A stretch of 39,498 nt of DNA from a virus. The position numbers and the translations under genes were made by a program. Within the stretch, counting starts at the first letter, position 1. Each line of letters opens with the position of its first letter. Shown one piece after another: positions 1 through 13,776 of this stretch. The DNA lies in the IMG/VR virus record IMGVR_UViG_3300042261_000565, positions 1 through 39,498 of that record. One strand, written 5' to 3'. The notes under the pieces are model-generated. The model saw only the letters and a list, made by a program, of their open reading frames with translations, was not told where the DNA came from and did not search any database.

Positions 1-1
1 T

Positions 2-160
2 CGTTCAGGAGAAATGTTTCAGTGTCAGAAATGTGGCTACACTGATAACGCAGATATAAATGCATCTAGAAACATTTTGAACAGATTTCTTACAGGAAAG
101 TACGGTTCCTGTTACAAACCAGAAAATATACAAGAATTAACTACTAGTAGATTTTTGTAG
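2..160 (+). CDS. tnpB: TnpB (IS200/IS605 OrfB family), C-terminal fragment
   Basis: The gene runs in from the left edge; only the last 52 codons are present, read in the frame starting at base 2. It shows the second half of the TnpB zinc finger (CQKCGY, residues 8-13 of the fragment), then the RuvC-III motif TDNADINASRNI with the catalytic aspartate, then a short tail ending FL. This motif order is diagnostic of TnpB, the RNA-guided nuclease of IS200/IS605-type elements. The first CxxC pair and the other RuvC motifs lie outside the window, so activity cannot be judged. It faces the tRNA cluster, which is on the other strand and starts about 60 bases downstream. Confidence 0.9.
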   Translation, partial: RSGEMFQCQKCGYTDNADINASRNILNRFLTGKYGSCYKPENIQELTTSRFL

Positions 161-297: not shown

Positions 298-307
298 GTT
301 GAAAATT

Positions 308-377
308 TGCCCCTCCGTGTAACGCTCACGGTCTGTTTCGGTCAAAGCGAAATGTGCAACTTTCACACTCAGGGGCA
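308..377 (-). tRNA. tRNA-Gln(UUG)
   Basis: The acceptor stem is TGCCCCT/AGGGGCA. The anticodon arm TTTCG-CTTTGAC-CGAAA gives anticodon UUG. The T arm is CCGTG-AGCGTTA-CACGG, with an unusual T loop that lacks the usual TTC start. The D arm has three pairs and the variable loop four bases. CCA is not encoded. Confidence 0.8.
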
Positions 378-390
378 GTCTTAAATTGGA

Positions 391-473: not shown

Positions 474-480
474 GAAAAAT

Positions 481-578
481 TGGCACAGAAGCAGGGGATC
501 GAACCCTGTCGGATTTAACGTTTATAGTTAAATACTCATGAATTTTGGAGACTCATCGGCTTCCCTAGCCTCTTCTGT
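481..578 (-). tRNA. tRNA-Trp(CCA) with enlarged variable arm
   Basis: The acceptor stem is ACAGAAG/CTTCTGT, followed by discriminator G and an encoded CCA. The T arm is CAGGG-TTCGATC-CCCTG. The anticodon arm TGAGT-CTCCAAA-ATTCA carries the standard Trp loop, and G73 fits tRNA-Trp. The variable region is about 30 bases and holds a 7-bp hairpin (ATTTAAC/GTTAAAT), which is odd for Trp. The D loop is unusually short. Identity rests on the anticodon loop and discriminator. Confidence 0.65.
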
Positions 579-846: not shown

Positions 847-920
847 TGGCTGGCAAATCTGGATTTGAACCAGAATTCTTCGGGTAACAGCCGAGAGTCC
901 TACCATTGAACGATATGCCA
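847..920 (-). tRNA. tRNA-Asn(GUU)
   Basis: The acceptor stem TGGCATA/TTTGCCA has one mismatch and is followed by G73 and an encoded CCA. The anticodon loop CTGTTAC gives GUU. The T arm TCTGG-TTCAAAT-CCAGA is perfect and the D arm GTTC/GGAC pairs. Confidence 0.92.
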
Positions 921-932
921 ATAAAATTAAAC

Positions 933-1023
933 AGGTTAGTTTCTACTTTGTTCTTTTAAATCTACAAAAGTCGAAAAAAGATACGCATTTGGCTTTCGCC
1001 AGTTTGTTTGCTGAACCTAACCT
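933..1023 (-). ncRNA. structured RNA E1, related to E2 at 1137-1280
   Basis: On the minus strand this 91-base element starts AGGTTAG and ends CTAACCT, so its ends pair perfectly over 7 bp. Inside is a small hairpin TGGC-GAAA-GCCA. It has tRNA size but no recognisable T arm or anticodon arm, so it is not an ordinary tRNA. It shares with E2 the start AGGTT, an early CAGCAAA, TTTTGTAG in the middle and AAAGTAGAAA just before the closing strand. The end stems differ in sequence between the two copies, yet both still pair. It lies between tRNA-Asn and tRNA-Ser(UGA) on the same strand and is presumably cut from the same transcript. Function is unknown; a Y-RNA-like role is proposed in the findings. 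Confidence 0.5.
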
Positions 1024-1032
1024 TTATAAAAA

Positions 1033-1127
1033 TGGCGGCTCCTGTCAGACTTCAACTGACACTCCTTACTCACGTAAGAAGTCTCCTTTTCAAGAGGAGT
1101 GGATTCCTTTCTTTCTCCCAAGGAGCC
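1033..1127 (-). tRNA. tRNA-Ser(UGA)
   Basis: The acceptor stem GGCTCCT/AGGAGCC is followed by G73 and an encoded CCA. The anticodon arm CTCCT-CTTGAAA-AGGAG gives UGA. A long 9-bp variable arm (ACTTCTTAC/GTAAGGAGT) closes on GTGA. The T arm is GTCAG-TTGAAGT-CTGAC. Confidence 0.93.
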
Positions 1128-1136
1128 GAAATAAAC

Positions 1137-1280
1137 AGGTTGATTTTTCTACTTTTTACAGAATTTCGAAACTGGTGTTATTTTCACAGAACTACAAAAC
1201 TGCCAAATTTTATTAACCTATGTGATTTGGTAACACACGATCTGTTTCATGTTAATTTTTTATTTTGCTGTAATCAACCT
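1137..1280 (-). ncRNA. structured RNA E2, related to E1 at 933-1023
   Basis: On the minus strand this 144-base element starts AGGTTGATT and ends AATCAACCT, a perfect 9-bp closing stem. It shares sequence blocks with E1 at both ends and in the middle, with about 50 extra bases. An inner ATTAAC/GTTAAT stem encloses a TGTG/CACA hairpin, and a TTCGAAA string resembles a T loop. The 13-mer TTGATTACAGCAA at its 5' end (bases 1265-1277) recurs at 13721-13733 in the leader of the Ro60-like gene. It lies between tRNA-Ser(UGA) and tRNA-His. It could instead be a decayed tRNA pair, but the paired ends argue for a retained structure. Confidence 0.5.
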
Positions 1281-1286
1281 TAAAAT

Positions 1287-1361
1287 TGGGGTGTCATACG
1301 AATCTCGAAATCGTTCCAAAAGCTTCACAGGCTTCTATGCTTCCGTTACACCAATGACACC
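1287..1361 (-). tRNA. tRNA-His(GUG)
   Basis: The acceptor stem is GTGTCAT/ATGACAC with an extra encoded G at the 5' end opposite C73, the G-1:C73 pair specific to histidine tRNA, and CCA follows. The anticodon arm GAAGC-CTGTGAA-GCTTT gives GUG. The T arm ACGAT-TTCGAGA-TTCGT has one mismatch. Confidence 0.92.
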
Positions 1362-1544: not shown

Positions 1545-1572
1545 AATCTATCACAAATTCAAAAAATGTCAA
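1545..1572 (-). promoter_or_regulatory. sigma70-type promoter of the tRNA cluster
   Basis: On the minus strand TTGACA (1572-1567), a 16-bp spacer and TAGATT (1550-1545) precede the tRNA/ncRNA cluster. The promoter comes directly after the terminator at 1581-1614, which separates it from the upstream gene run. Confidence 0.65.
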
Positions 1573-4585: not shown

Positions 4586-5164
4586 ATGAGTGCAACTGAA
4601 ACAAATTCGTTATTAGAAGAACTTAAAAATCTTAATAAAGATTTAAAAGGCGAGTTAAAAAATACAAAAAATTCGACTTTATCTACTACAACTACTATTA
4701 CTTCATCTATTTCTTCGACAATAGTGCCTGTTATTAGTAGTGCAGTTAAACCTACCTTAACAGAGGAAAATTTAAGTGATTTTATATTAGAAAAAGCACA
4801 GGAATTAATAATAACAGGCTTAGATACCGTTAAAGACCTCCAAATGACCGTTGTGAACACATTGGACACAAGGGCTATGCAAGGTTATGCTAACATAATT
4901 GGAGCCACCACAGCCGCAATAGACACCTTAAATGCCATAAATTTGGAACGCAGCAAACAAAAGGCCCAAAAAGAAATAAAAACTATGGAAATTGAGGCTA
5001 AAAAAGCTATTGGTCCTTCTAAAAATACTCACAATACAGTAAATCTTATAGCTAATCGTGAAACTATATTAAAAATGTTACAAGAAGGAACAAATATACC
5101 AGCTAAAGAAAATATTATTGATTTAAAACCCGAAGAATATAGTGTATCTGAAGAGAATAATTAA
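4586..5164 (+). CDS. putative terminase small subunit (T4 gp16-like)
   Basis: The 192-residue protein has a Ser/Thr-rich stretch (about 30-55) and then a long helical region (about 60-145) built like the central coiled coil of T4-type gp16. It includes DTRAMQGYANII at about 93-104, which resembles the family's conserved (D)PRAxEV segment, and then a lysine-rich coiled coil. gp16 forms a ring that recognises DNA and regulates the packaging motor. Length fits the family (about 160-200). The large subunit gp17 is not in the window. Its last 4 bases overlap the convergent methyltransferase gene. Confidence 0.6.
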   Translation: MSATETNSLLEELKNLNKDLKGELKNTKNSTLSTTTTITSSISSTIVPVISSAVKPTLTEENLSDFILEKAQELIITGLDTVKDLQMTVVNTLDTRAMQGYANIIGATTAAIDTLNAINLERSKQKAQKEIKTMEIEAKKAIGPSKNTHNTVNLIANRETILKMLQEGTNIPAKENIIDLKPEEYSVSEENN

Positions 5165-6276
5165 TTTTTACACCATATCCATAATGGTTCACAAAAAACA
5201 CCATTTTTATCGGCAAAAGTGTTTGGTCTTTTTATCATTTTCATACCAATACAACCTTTATAATTTGATTTATTCAATGTAGATATAAAATCGTTCATAG
5301 GATCACAAATTTTATTAATAGTATGATTAGAATAAACGTCAGATATATTTAAAATTAAATATCCACCATCTTTTAAATTATTCCAAAAATTATTTATACT
5401 TTTAAATAAAAATCCTTCTAACCAATTATTTAATTTTTTAAATTTTTTAAAAGATTGATTATCTTGTTGTGTATATCTTTCAATATTAAAATATGGAGTA
5501 CTTGTAAAAAGTAAATCAAATTTTTCTTCTTTAAAATTAACATCCTCTGAACAACTTGATAATATTTGAGCCGTTTTATTTGATATTAAAGTTTTATAAG
5601 TAGATATCTGACTATTATATCCTTCAATTAAATTTATATTTGGATCAATTCCGATATAACTAAAACAATTTGAAGTCCAAAATCCTAATAATCTATCTCC
5701 CCATCCACTAGAAAAATCTAAAACCATTCCATTATTTCCATATTTATTATAAATATACTTTGCTATAATAGGTTTAAATTGTGATGCCATATATTTTCTC
5801 ATTACAATAGCCGTTCTAAAAGTTGAGATTGTAATATCATCTTTAATTAAACCGCTCCAAAAATAATTTAAAAGCGTATTTAAAAATTTATCATTATTCC
5901 AAACTCTTATAGGTGATGGTGAATTAATACTATCACACAATAATCTGTTATTAAAATGGAAAAAATTAGATGCGTTTAACCCCGTATTGTTTCCGTCTAA
6001 ATATTCTTTGTTTTTCTCCCATTTATATTCATATCTGCTAAACCACTCACCTTCTTTTAAAATATCTATAGAACAATTTTTCAATTTTTCAAAATCTTTA
6101 TACATATCTTCTATAGTAGGTTTATTAAATGGTAATAATATGTTATACTCTCTTATTGCTTTTATAATTTCATTTTTGATGTTTTGTTTATCATAATTTT
6201 TATTCAATTCTTTCCAATCTAATTGCGATATATAAAAATTGTTGTTTTTTATAAAATTATGATAATTTAATTGCAT
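5161..6276 (-). CDS. SAM-dependent DNA methyltransferase-like protein
   Basis: The 371 residues contain a class I SAM-binding motif (VLDFSSGWGDRLLG, 185-198), an acidic beta2 end (GIDPN, 209-213), a catalytic-type motif STPYFN (259-264) and GGYLILNISD (304-313). Amino-methyltransferases of DNA usually have (D/N/S)PP(Y/F); here the first proline is threonine, so activity is plausible but not certain. The N-terminal 150 residues may be a recognition domain. The gene is the last of a three-gene operon with two homing endonucleases, 17 bases after the stop of the nearer one. Confidence 0.75.
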   Translation of the reverse strand: MQLNYHNFIKNNNFYISQLDWKELNKNYDKQNIKNEIIKAIREYNILLPFNKPTIEDMYKDFEKLKNCSIDILKEGEWFSRYEYKWEKNKEYLDGNNTGLNASNFFHFNNRLLCDSINSPSPIRVWNNDKFLNTLLNYFWSGLIKDDITISTFRTAIVMRKYMASQFKPIIAKYIYNKYGNNGMVLDFSSGWGDRLLGFWTSNCFSYIGIDPNINLIEGYNSQISTYKTLISNKTAQILSSCSEDVNFKEEKFDLLFTSTPYFNIERYTQQDNQSFKKFKKLNNWLEGFLFKSINNFWNNLKDGGYLILNISDVYSNHTINKICDPMNDFISTLNKSNYKGCIGMKMIKRPNTFADKNGVFCEPLWIWCKN

Positions 6277-6293: not shown

Positions 6294-7925
6294 TTAATTA
6301 TAATATTTTTCAAATGTTAATGTTCCACAATCCCATATACGATCATAACCATTTGCTTTCATATTTTTCCATTCGCTTATATTAGGATTAAAATTTTCAA
6401 AACGCTTTTTTAATATTTGTTTATTAAACGAATAACGATGATATCTTTTTTGATAAGATTTGTCAATATACCAATAATTTGGTCTGCTTTCGTGCAGGAG
6501 TTTAAATCCTAATTTGTAGTATAAATTTCCAATATTCCATCTTTTATCCGAATAGGTTTTAATCATAATAGGTTTATATACTTTCTCAAAATAAGATAGC
6601 AATTTACTTGCTCCTCCTATAATGATAAAATTGTTTATAGAACAAAATCTACTTAATTCATAATATCCTTCAATGTGTTTTTGTCCTAAAGCCTTTCGTA
6701 ATTTAGAAAATGTCATAATAGAAACTAATTTATTTTTATAAAAAAGACCTAAATTTATTACACAACGATCTTCACCTTGTATATGATACTTATTTAAAAA
6801 TTTGTTTTTCAGTTTACTATCAATTTCTTTTATTTCACATTTACGCGCATATATTTTATATTTTGTAAATCCTAATATATTTTTTAAACGATTTTTAACT
6901 ATACTCTTTTTAAAATTCCATTCATCTTCAAATACATGAATAAGGTGTATATGTTTATCACTACATAAGTTTGTTTTAATTAAATGATATTTATGATTTT
7001 TATTTCCTTTTATTTCAGAATGCCAATATAGTCCATCATATTCTATAGCAATTTTATTATCTGGTAAATAGATATCTACTTCTAATGGTTTAATAACAGT
7101 TCTGTCTTGTACTACCACATTATTAACCAATGTTTTTATATATTCTAACAATTCGTTTTCTGAAATTGATTGTCCTTTTGTATTTATAAGTGGATTACAT
7201 TTATAACATCTTGGAATAGAACCATCATCTAAAGTAGATTCAGTTATTTCATTACATGCCGTACATTTAAATTTATATTTCTTATGACCAACTCCTTCAT
7301 ATTCAAAAGTATCAAATAATGGTGTAAATTTATTTGATAATCTATTACCACTTATTAAGTCATTTAAAAATTTATTTCTGTTTGTCGTAATTCTTTTTTT
7401 AATTGTTTCTATTTCATTATTTTTTCTAGTTTTTTTAATTTTTTCTATAATAGATGGTAATTGAAATACATTTTTAACACCATATTTTTCTAAAATTCTG
7501 TTTTCATTTGATGATCTACCATGTTCGGATTTCATATAATGATCTTGTCCATAATGTTCCAAAAAAGTTTGTTGTTTTTTTGTTTTTATTTCTGTGGATT
7601 GTGATGGATTTGTTACACCATATTTTTCCAAAAATGCTTTAACCTTTTTTTCTTTAATACTATTGATTCTATTACTGTGTCCTAAAATATAATCTCTTGT
7701 TGGAGTTAAAACATTATTTCCACAACCACATTTACATTTCTTTATTTCTTTTAAATCGTTTAAATAATAATATACTCTATCTTTAAAAGAAGCATTAATA
7801 GGTAAAAAATTGGTAAAATCCATAACAGCTTTATAAATATAAAAATACTTTGTATTAGGTGTATGACAAACTGCAACACAACCTAATTTATGTTGTAACA
7901 TTTTCAAATCTTCTTTTATATTCAT
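6294..7925 (-). CDS. homing endonuclease with VSR-like nuclease domain (1)
   Basis: The 543-residue protein has an N-terminal Cys cluster (KCKCGCG, 63-69), three EKYGV-type repeats (about 100-155) that look like DNA-binding modules, and a zinc ribbon (C221/C224, C240/C243). The nuclease domain has LEVD at 281-284, EYDGLYWHSE at 295-304 and EDEW at 333-336. This is the pattern of the EDxHD (I-Bth0305I/Vsr-like) homing endonucleases common in T4-type phages. The conserved C-terminus ends NGYDRIWDCG plus a short tail. It overlaps the upstream endonuclease gene by ATGA and is 17 bases from the methyltransferase. Confidence 0.85.
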   Translation of the reverse strand: MNIKEDLKMLQHKLGCVAVCHTPNTKYFYIYKAVMDFTNFLPINASFKDRVYYYLNDLKEIKKCKCGCGNNVLTPTRDYILGHSNRINSIKEKKVKAFLEKYGVTNPSQSTEIKTKKQQTFLEHYGQDHYMKSEHGRSSNENRILEKYGVKNVFQLPSIIEKIKKTRKNNEIETIKKRITTNRNKFLNDLISGNRLSNKFTPLFDTFEYEGVGHKKYKFKCTACNEITESTLDDGSIPRCYKCNPLINTKGQSISENELLEYIKTLVNNVVVQDRTVIKPLEVDIYLPDNKIAIEYDGLYWHSEIKGNKNHKYHLIKTNLCSDKHIHLIHVFEDEWNFKKSIVKNRLKNILGFTKYKIYARKCEIKEIDSKLKNKFLNKYHIQGEDRCVINLGLFYKNKLVSIMTFSKLRKALGQKHIEGYYELSRFCSINNFIIIGGASKLLSYFEKVYKPIMIKTYSDKRWNIGNLYYKLGFKLLHESRPNYWYIDKSYQKRYHRYSFNKQILKKRFENFNPNISEWKNMKANGYDRIWDCGTLTFEKYYN

Positions 7926-9394
7926 AAAATATTATATTGCTTTTCAAATAATAATGTTCCACAGTCCCATATACGATCATAACCGTTTGCTTTCATGTTT
8001 TCCCATTCGCTTATATTAGGATTAAAATTTATTATTTTGTTTTTTAAAATTGATTTTCTAAAATTAAATCTATAAATTCGATTTAAATAATCTTTTGTAT
8101 ACCAATAAGATGGTCTTGTTTTTCTTGTCATAGTAAATCCTAAATTATAATATAAATTACCATTTGACCATCTTCTGTCAGCATAACTTATTATTTTTTG
8201 TGGTTTATATTTTTTCTCAAAATAAGATAATAATTTTCCAGCCGCACCAACAATATTAAATTTAGAAATAGTCGCAAATCTACTTAATTCCCAACAATTT
8301 TCTCGATGTTCTCTCCCTAATACTTTTCTAAATTTACTAAATGTCATAACAGATATTAAATGTGATTTATAAAATAATCCGATATGTTTATTTGAATGAT
8401 CTTGACCTTGTATATGATATTTATTAAGAAATTTATCTTTTGTTTTAATATCAATTTCTTTTATATAGCAATTTCTCGCCCATATTTTATATTTTGTGTG
8501 CTTTAATATATTCATTAATCTATTTTTTACAATAGGCCATTTATACATAATTTCATCTGCAAAAAGTTGTATAAGAAATATTCCTGCTTTTTGTGCTTCT
8601 TCTGTTTTCATTAAATGATAACTAGAATTTGCGCCCATGCTTTCAGAATGCCAATATAGTCCGTTTATTTCAATTCCAATTTTCTTTTCTGGTATATAAA
8701 TATCAATTTCATAAGGTTTAATAATAGATCGAGTATTTAAAACTATTGTTTCATATTTTGTAATAAAATCAATAACTTTTTGTTCTATATTAGAATTTTT
8801 GGTGCAAACTGGACAATGTAACTTTCCAATTTCATAATACCAATGATCAAATATAGTGTTACATTTTATACATTGCCATTTATAAATTTTATCATAACCT
8901 TGCCCAAAATATTCTTTCCTAGTAAATAATGGTTTAATTCCAATTTTTTCAGGAAAATCTAAAAATCTTTTAAACATTACATCTAATATTTTGTTTTTTA
9001 TTACATTTTTATCAGTAGTTTTCGCTTTGCATTTACTACTACAAAAAGATTGCTTAGTAATTCTCTTTTCTCGTAATATCTCTTTTCCACAAATTGTACA
9101 TAATGTCTTTTTTAAGTATGACCAACTTTTTCCTGTAAATTTACGAATCGTTGTGTCATCAACTTCTTCAATACCTATACCATGTTTCTTATTAAGATTG
9201 TTTTTAATATTATACTTACTTTTACAAGTATTATCACAAAAATTTAATCTGCCTTCTTTTTTATCTGCAATTCTTCTATAAAGTTCTTTATTGCAAAAAG
9301 AACATTTAGTTTTATAAACATAAACCCAACCAGAATTAGTACGAGTTCTAAACTTATTATCATCACAAAATATATATTTTTGTTTTGTATCCAT
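7922..9394 (-). CDS. homing endonuclease with VSR-like nuclease domain (2)
   Basis: The 490-residue paralogue of the next gene has three Cys4 zinc ribbons (C31/C34/C53/C57, C99/C102/C118/C122, C174/C177/C194/C197). The nuclease core has E229-x-D231 and EINGLYWHSE (242-251). The second motif has N where the paralogues have D (EYDG versus EING). The C-terminal 250 residues closely match the other two endonucleases. It is first in an operon under a TTGACA-16-TATAAT promoter, just downstream of the capsid gene terminator; a leader of only about two bases is predicted. Confidence 0.85.
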   Translation of the reverse strand: MDTKQKYIFCDDNKFRTRTNSGWVYVYKTKCSFCNKELYRRIADKKEGRLNFCDNTCKSKYNIKNNLNKKHGIGIEEVDDTTIRKFTGKSWSYLKKTLCTICGKEILREKRITKQSFCSSKCKAKTTDKNVIKNKILDVMFKRFLDFPEKIGIKPLFTRKEYFGQGYDKIYKWQCIKCNTIFDHWYYEIGKLHCPVCTKNSNIEQKVIDFITKYETIVLNTRSIIKPYEIDIYIPEKKIGIEINGLYWHSESMGANSSYHLMKTEEAQKAGIFLIQLFADEIMYKWPIVKNRLMNILKHTKYKIWARNCYIKEIDIKTKDKFLNKYHIQGQDHSNKHIGLFYKSHLISVMTFSKFRKVLGREHRENCWELSRFATISKFNIVGAAGKLLSYFEKKYKPQKIISYADRRWSNGNLYYNLGFTMTRKTRPSYWYTKDYLNRIYRFNFRKSILKNKIINFNPNISEWENMKANGYDRIWDCGTLLFEKQYNIL

Positions 9395-13705: not shown

Positions 13706-13776
13706 TATAAACAGAATAGATTGATTACAGCAATTAAAACCATTAAAGGAAAAACATCAGTCTGAAAGAAAAAAAT

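Follow-up and report, generated by a model that had tools for sequence, protein, structure and literature searches.

Two RNA elements of a phage tRNA cluster as probable Y-RNA-like ligands of a divergent Ro60

Two segments of a viral tRNA cluster, here called E1 and E2, raise the question of what small RNAs other than tRNAs such a cluster encodes. They lie on the minus strand of the IMG/VR virus record IMGVR_UViG_3300042261_000565, the whole of which (39,498 nt) was analysed and is called the window below. Its capsid, portal, sheath-stabiliser and adaptor genes show that the window is part of the genome of a T4-like myovirus. An earlier note had taken E1 and E2 for an undescribed phage small-RNA family processed together with tRNAs. 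This interpretation was partly supported. E1 and E2 are very likely Y-RNA-like ligands of a divergent relative of human Ro60 encoded by the same phage, with probable autoregulation through a further copy of the element in the leader of the protein's gene. The earlier note had included neither this protein partner nor the third element. The features concerned are the following.

933..1023, minus strand: E1, Y-RNA-like element of 91 nt (48.8 bits with the family model R1, in which E1 itself is included)
1137..1280, minus strand: E2, Y-RNA-like element of 144 nt (46.0 bits with model R1, in which E2 itself is included)
13718..13764, plus strand: leader mini-element of the Ro60-like gene, AGATTGA-TTA-CAGCAA...TCAGTCT-G, whose end is 12 nt upstream of the ATG
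13777..15198, plus strand: gene of the Ro60-like protein, 473 aa, with Pfam DUF2828 and DUF7788 (vWA-like) and a metal ion-dependent adhesion site (MIDAS) of the form D-x-S-G-S

An RNA family with a covarying closing stem

The coordinates, strand and closing stems of the two elements (AGGTTAG/CTAACCT in E1, AGGTTGATT/AATCAACCT in E2) were as the earlier note had given them. E1 further contains CAGCAAA, a TGGC-GAAA-GCCA hairpin, TTTCGA and AAAGTAGAAA; E2 contains CAGCAAA, the T-arm-like CAG-TTTCGAAATT-CTG and AAAAAGTAGAAA. They are paralogous non-tRNA elements, and their common start AGGTT...CAGCAAA (AGGTTNNNTNCAGCAAA) was found only at these two places of the window, and none of 100 shuffles contained it. 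The other shared segment that had been pointed out, TTTTGTAG, is present in both, on the 3' side of TTTCGA in E1 and on the 5' side in E2. The family does not conserve it, and its sharing is probably due to chance. The folding energy of each sequence alone was unremarkable (z of -1.8 for E1 and -1.5 for E2), so the case for the elements depends on comparison.

BLASTN searches of cultured phages with the whole cluster and with three family members gave nothing useful, because the elements are too short and too variable, and when 20 relatives were scanned with a nucleotide pattern, the pattern proved too loose to tell anything. Two exact patterns tried first in viral contigs returned chance matches only, in part owing to the lack of conservation of TTTTGTAG. 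Patterns remade from one relative (L007, a 248 kb contig whose capsid protein is 84% identical) were successful. The tRNA cluster of this relative contains three elements, with stems that differ and still pair (AGGTTGATT/AATCAACCT, AGATTGTGT/ACACAATCT and AAGTTGG/CCAACTT), and the first of them occupies the position that E2 has after tRNA-His. The subtype was then gathered from dozens more viral contigs by its core motifs (CAGCAAA, TTTCGA, AAAGTAGRAA), pairing not being used.

In a fixed frame (7-nt arm, 3-nt linker, CAGCA), all seven pairs of the closing stem were formed in each of the 46 distinct copies, which use 16 different arms. When the arms were reshuffled (2000 rounds), the number of complete pairings was 9.4 on average and 18 at most. 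In the alignment, compensatory changes on both sides were found for 11 of the 12 modelled pairs and 97.8% of the cells were paired, against at most 52% when the partner was slid; the covariation score was 0.39 versus 0.13 in shuffles. About 40 distinct copies that come from other viral contigs maintain the stem by such compensation. The proposal that pairing is kept while the stems differ is thus borne out, and a phage small-RNA family with a covarying closing stem is supported. Conservation covers the closing stem, CAGCAA (invariant throughout the alignment), a T-arm-like hairpin with TTTCGA, AAAGTAGRAA and, on the 3' side, GTT. The wider CAGCAA family was defined by a 7-bp stem, a 3-nt linker, CAGCAA and the partner arm with a G after it. 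This form is shared by E1, E2 and the leader element.

The Ro60-like gene, its linkage and its leader

When loci were collected by RNA-only searches, a DUF2828-type gene was present at 63 of 70, usually within a few hundred bases downstream and on the same strand. At the other seven the gene is missing from the stretch, and four of these are additional stretches of L007-type contigs, which have the gene at another place. Most relatives have their elements directly beside the Ro60-like gene, with tRNAs nearby or not, so that the processing together with tRNAs proposed in the earlier note is not what defines the family. The RNA model and PF11443 agreed on 20 of 20 whole contigs (16 with both, four with neither); as the 16 positive contigs were reached through the RNA, this agreement by itself is not independent evidence.

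Loci were also chosen by the protein only. The gene was present in about 675 of 50,697 cultured phage records. All 4096 hexamers were compared by how often they stand 3 nt inward of a perfect 7-bp stem that has a G after it. Around the gene in 16 cultured phages, CAGCAA was enclosed in this way in 37 of 74 cases; the next hexamer had 8 matches, all hexamers together reached 2.0%, and the opposite strand gave one CAGCAW. Twelve of the 16 phages scored. The hosts include Synechococcus, Cronobacter, Aeromonas, Rhizobium, Vibrio and Listeria, as well as E. coli, Mycobacterium, Campylobacter, Enterococcus and Staphylococcus. In Escherichia phage JohannRWettstein (Bas63), which infects E. coli K-12, the gene is bas63_0130, and elements are located at 4715-4781, 4882-4939, 5337-5404 and 5424-5549 of its locus (L173). 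In a second set of 27 genome-collection loci, also chosen by protein, the count was 34 of 74 versus 2.3% (nominal p 1e-35, a value that ignores kinship among loci), and the effect was about 20-fold in both sets. At gene-free loci, enclosed CAGCAA was found in 4 of 329 cases. The covariance model built from the E1/E2 subtype alone also detected many shorter elements, mostly on the strand of the gene.

Tandem arrays were seen on some contigs of metagenome-assembled genomes. Upstream of the gene, a Clostridia contig (L193, 1746-2397) has three tandem elements of 125-131 nt that share the same ends, ACGATAC/GTATCGT, and Oscillospiraceae contigs (L196, L199, L200 and L201), which may be phage or not, have up to four tandem CAGCAA elements upstream of DUF2828 genes.

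The protein itself was related to Ro60 by its predicted structure, because sequence searches gave no match or a weak one: a profile search against PDB sequences returned no Ro60, and phmmer gave only a weak TROVE match (E 0.036). A canonical TROVE gene was sought as the partner on 13 contigs and none was found. Exact peptides from the window protein had no match in viral contigs; its homologues came to light by way of the RNA elements and through tblastn. An AlphaFold2 model built from 33 homologues (pLDDT 82.7) had Ro60 structures as its best matches, which extend along the full chain (Foldseek E 9e-9). With VIA-align, the comparison with Ro60 gave a Z of 23.0 (4.4 A over 414 residues), the best unrelated vWA row having about 12.6. 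The protein is predicted to have a full-length Ro60 fold, with a helical-repeat ring and a vWA domain carrying the MIDAS, whose residues D277, S279 and S281 are invariant.

The leader of the gene contains the mini-element 13718-13764, which was left out of model building and scored 25.7 bits with model R1 (E 0.002). A short copy ending no more than 45 nt from the start codon was found for 26 of 45 genes. Versions that are shorter or differ slightly are present in the leaders of L007 and L011, and KVP40 has a weaker one (6/7 pairs), the 3' arm of which overlaps the annotated start codon.

The tRNA cluster and the RNA bodies

The minus-strand cluster runs tRNA-His, E2, tRNA-Ser(UGA), E1, tRNA-Asn, tRNA-Ser(GCU) and then more tRNAs. 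The neighbours of the elements and the signals upstream are as follows.

1287..1360, minus strand: tRNA-His, upstream of E2
1033..1127, minus strand: tRNA-Ser(UGA), between E2 and E1
847..920, minus strand: tRNA-Asn, downstream of E1
1545..1572, minus strand: promoter-like TTGACA-16-TAGATT upstream of the tRNA/E2/E1 cluster (consensus match only)
1586-1615: terminator-like hairpin, just after which the promoter-like site comes

Neither E1 nor E2 was called as a tRNA by ARAGORN or by the Rfam tRNA model, which called the neighbours on both sides; the non-tRNA nature given to them in the earlier note was thereby confirmed. They could still be decayed tRNAs or tRNA-like spacers, lying as they do between tRNAs, and a T-arm-like G-TTTCGANTT-C hairpin is present in many copies of the family, with tRNA-like T and D arms in some relatives. 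The covarying stem and the invariant CAGCAA are not what decay would produce. The acceptor/D/anticodon/T order and the CCA are absent, and the elements track the Ro60-like gene outside tRNA clusters too. Degenerate tRNA genes were rejected on the covariation, and the hexamer counts near the gene, in both sets, largely refute them as well; this origin is judged very improbable. It is even harder to credit that the elements are processing signals or spacers which only guide cleavage of the tRNA precursor: their position amid tRNA genes of the same strand would suit such a role, but many copies lie apart from tRNAs, immediately upstream of the Ro60-like gene.

The bodies enclosed by the common ends are diverse. 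The count over all loci came to 247 distinct enclosed elements (median length 89 nt), with both strands and some chance matches included. They comprise T-arm-like hairpins (as in E2), bare loops of 45-60 nt, bodies of about 200 nt and a module like that of YrlA, a bacterial Y RNA. This last type, a YrlA-like T arm and then a D arm inside the same end frame, was found at four loci (L088, L108, L174 and L177) with 34-48 bits; the Rfam YrlA (RF02553) cut-off is 69 bits and the best family member had 47.8 bits. At L177 the better-scoring YrlA-like element has CAGCGA in place of CAGCAA. E1 and E2 themselves have only the T-arm-like hairpin as a tRNA-like feature, the permuted T/D module being seen at those four loci. 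An element of about 210 nt (L105, 9487-9696) has GGGATGA/TCATCCC ends and CAGCAA; its body is much longer and apparently of another module class.

Other features of the window were recorded. At 305-380 (minus strand) there is a degenerate-looking tRNA-Gln(UUG) with the acceptor TGCCCCT/AGGGGCA, the anticodon arm TTTCG-CTTTGAC-CGAAA and an aberrant T loop, lacking CCA; ARAGORN and Rfam made no call. A tRNA-like acceptor and T arm with an encoded CCA and an odd middle (TTAAC-TATAAAC-GTTAA) stand at 480-577 (minus strand), where the tRNA tools made no call either. A long inverted repeat, CTAAATACATTACGACATA...TATGTCGTAATGTATTTAG, lies at 1427-1494 between the promoter-like site and tRNA-His. At 1-160 (plus strand), the C-terminus of a TnpB-type-looking protein, with a CxxC zinc-finger-like FQCQKCGYTDNADINASRN, is cut at the contig end. 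Three homing/HNH endonuclease genes of one family (phrog_3339) are found on the minus strand (6294-7925, 7922-9394 and 19294-20973), within 15 kb and amid structural genes.

Known systems and proposed role

The bacterial Y RNAs (YrlA, RF02553; the D. radiodurans Y RNA) and their protein Rsr are the closest known kind: small RNAs with paired ends beside a gene of the Ro60 fold. The permuted tRNA mimic (T arm/D arm) that typifies YrlA is present in several members of the CAGCAA family. The ends differ, being a stem, NNN and CAGCAA in the family and CgaAUG/AcUUG in the Rfam YrlA consensus. The phage partner is a DUF2828/DUF7788 protein and not Pfam TROVE, there are several RNAs per genome and a leader copy, and E1 and E2 lack the full tRNA mimic.

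Phage Ro60 proteins have been met before. Ro/TROVE proteins were noted in jumbo phages (PMC7824862). The Ro60 of Thermus phage phiLo (PDB 9l5y) is a phage-encoded Ro60 fold that matches the window protein (Z 16.7), but it is annotated as a TROVE-domain protein; no described RNA partner was found for it in the literature, the phage's own genome not having been examined. Mycobacteriophages such as LeBron have a 'Ro-like RNA binding protein'; that of LeBron (gp53) is homologous to the window protein (29% identity), and three CAGCAA elements, one of them YrlA-like, directly follow its gene. There the annotation concerns the protein only, and no RNA is annotated within the stretch examined. In Listeria phage CKA15, the Ro60/Rsr-like gene CKA15_055 (identified by HHpred) is downstream of tRNA genes and highly transcribed noncoding regions, which were proposed as Y RNAs (PMC12282133), no motif, structure or family being defined in that study. 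The related phage cka14 has three CAGCAA elements just before its Ro60/Rsr-like gene. A ROOL RNA (86 bits, just below the Rfam cut-off) was also seen in cka14 (L172, 2434-2985), about 1 kb upstream of the gene. The highly transcribed region of CKA15 may be ROOL instead of a Y RNA; the cka14 and CKA15 coordinates were not matched up. Of the 'undescribed' status that had been claimed for E1 and E2, one part stands: no Rfam family matched them at threshold, a family assignment being rejected on that account, and no paper defining the CAGCAA family was found; papers that mention DUF2828 were, judged by their titles, on plants. Key Y RNA literature was not covered by that search, and an earlier account of some phage (notably mycobacteriophage) members is possible. 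The kind of RNA had already been suggested for CKA15. A phage Ro60/Y RNA pair is of a known kind; what seems to be new is the CAGCAA signature, the breadth of its occurrence and the copy in the leader.

RNA C and RNA D of T4 (species 1 and 2) provide another precedent. They are stable non-tRNA RNAs of about 120-140 nt in the same setting, a T4-like tRNA cluster, and E1 and E2 might belong to this class of phage RNAs of unknown function, with no relation to Ro60. As rnaC and rnaD lack the end formed by CAGCAA and a closing stem, and the family model had no match in the T4 stretch, this candidate was rejected, and we regard membership of that class as highly unlikely.

The conserved ends, the free bodies, the protein of predicted Ro60 fold, the YrlA-type members and the leader copy together fit RNAs of Y RNA type, and the family of E1 and E2 probably consists of RNA partners of the Ro60-like protein, as Y RNAs are in cells. 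Several observations weigh against this identification. E1 and E2 have no match to Rfam YrlA, and CAGCAA is not the end motif of that family. The identity of the window protein with solved Ro60 chains is only 12-17%, and Pfam TROVE (PF05731) did not match it (E up to 1). Four of the 16 cultured phages with the gene have no element in the fixed frame, and E1 and E2 themselves are in the tRNA cluster, 12.5 kb away from the gene. Proximity alone is also no proof of contact. The RNA could be a structured one that is merely co-inherited with the gene and binds another protein or acts as an antisense small RNA. This seems unlikely, given that the linkage spans phages of Gram-negative, Gram-positive and mycobacterial hosts, that a copy stands in the gene's own leader, and that the same ends are found on YrlA-type modules, which are known Ro60 partners; fixed ends with freely varying bodies are moreover unlike antisense RNAs.

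If the elements are Y-RNA-like ligands, they would be transcribed, processed and bound by the protein. The paired ends (7-9 bp, a linker of 1-3 nt and CAGCAA) would be the docking site for the DUF2828/DUF7788 ring protein. The body would be a variable module, a T-arm-like hairpin here and sometimes a full permuted tRNA mimic in relatives. On the pattern of bacterial Y RNAs, the docked RNA may occupy or gate the RNA-binding surface of the protein and tether it to RNA-processing partners during infection. Gating or tethering is proposed as the likeliest role, because in Deinococcus the Y RNA tethers Rsr to PNPase for the decay of structured RNA (summarised in PMC7790460). A role against host tRNA cleavage is possible; YrlA has been considered a possible competitive inhibitor of anticodon nuclease (PMC7790460). 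Through the docking copy in the leader, the protein, when in surplus, would repress translation of its own mRNA.

We lean slightly towards a ribonucleoprotein common to many phages, in which a divergent viral Ro60 reads a tag made of stem and CAGCAA on modular RNAs and on its own mRNA leader. Such a protein would have several exchangeable RNA adaptors (tRNA mimics, hairpins, bodies of about 200 nt) and feedback control. The gene is usually annotated as hypothetical or 'RNA-binding'. Two Pfam families of 'unknown function' and many unannotated noncoding stretches of phages would be joined into one testable ribonucleoprotein, and some of the non-tRNA RNAs of large phage tRNA arrays would be accounted for. 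Simple genetic systems, including a phage of E. coli K-12, would become available for work on the function of Ro60 and Y RNAs.
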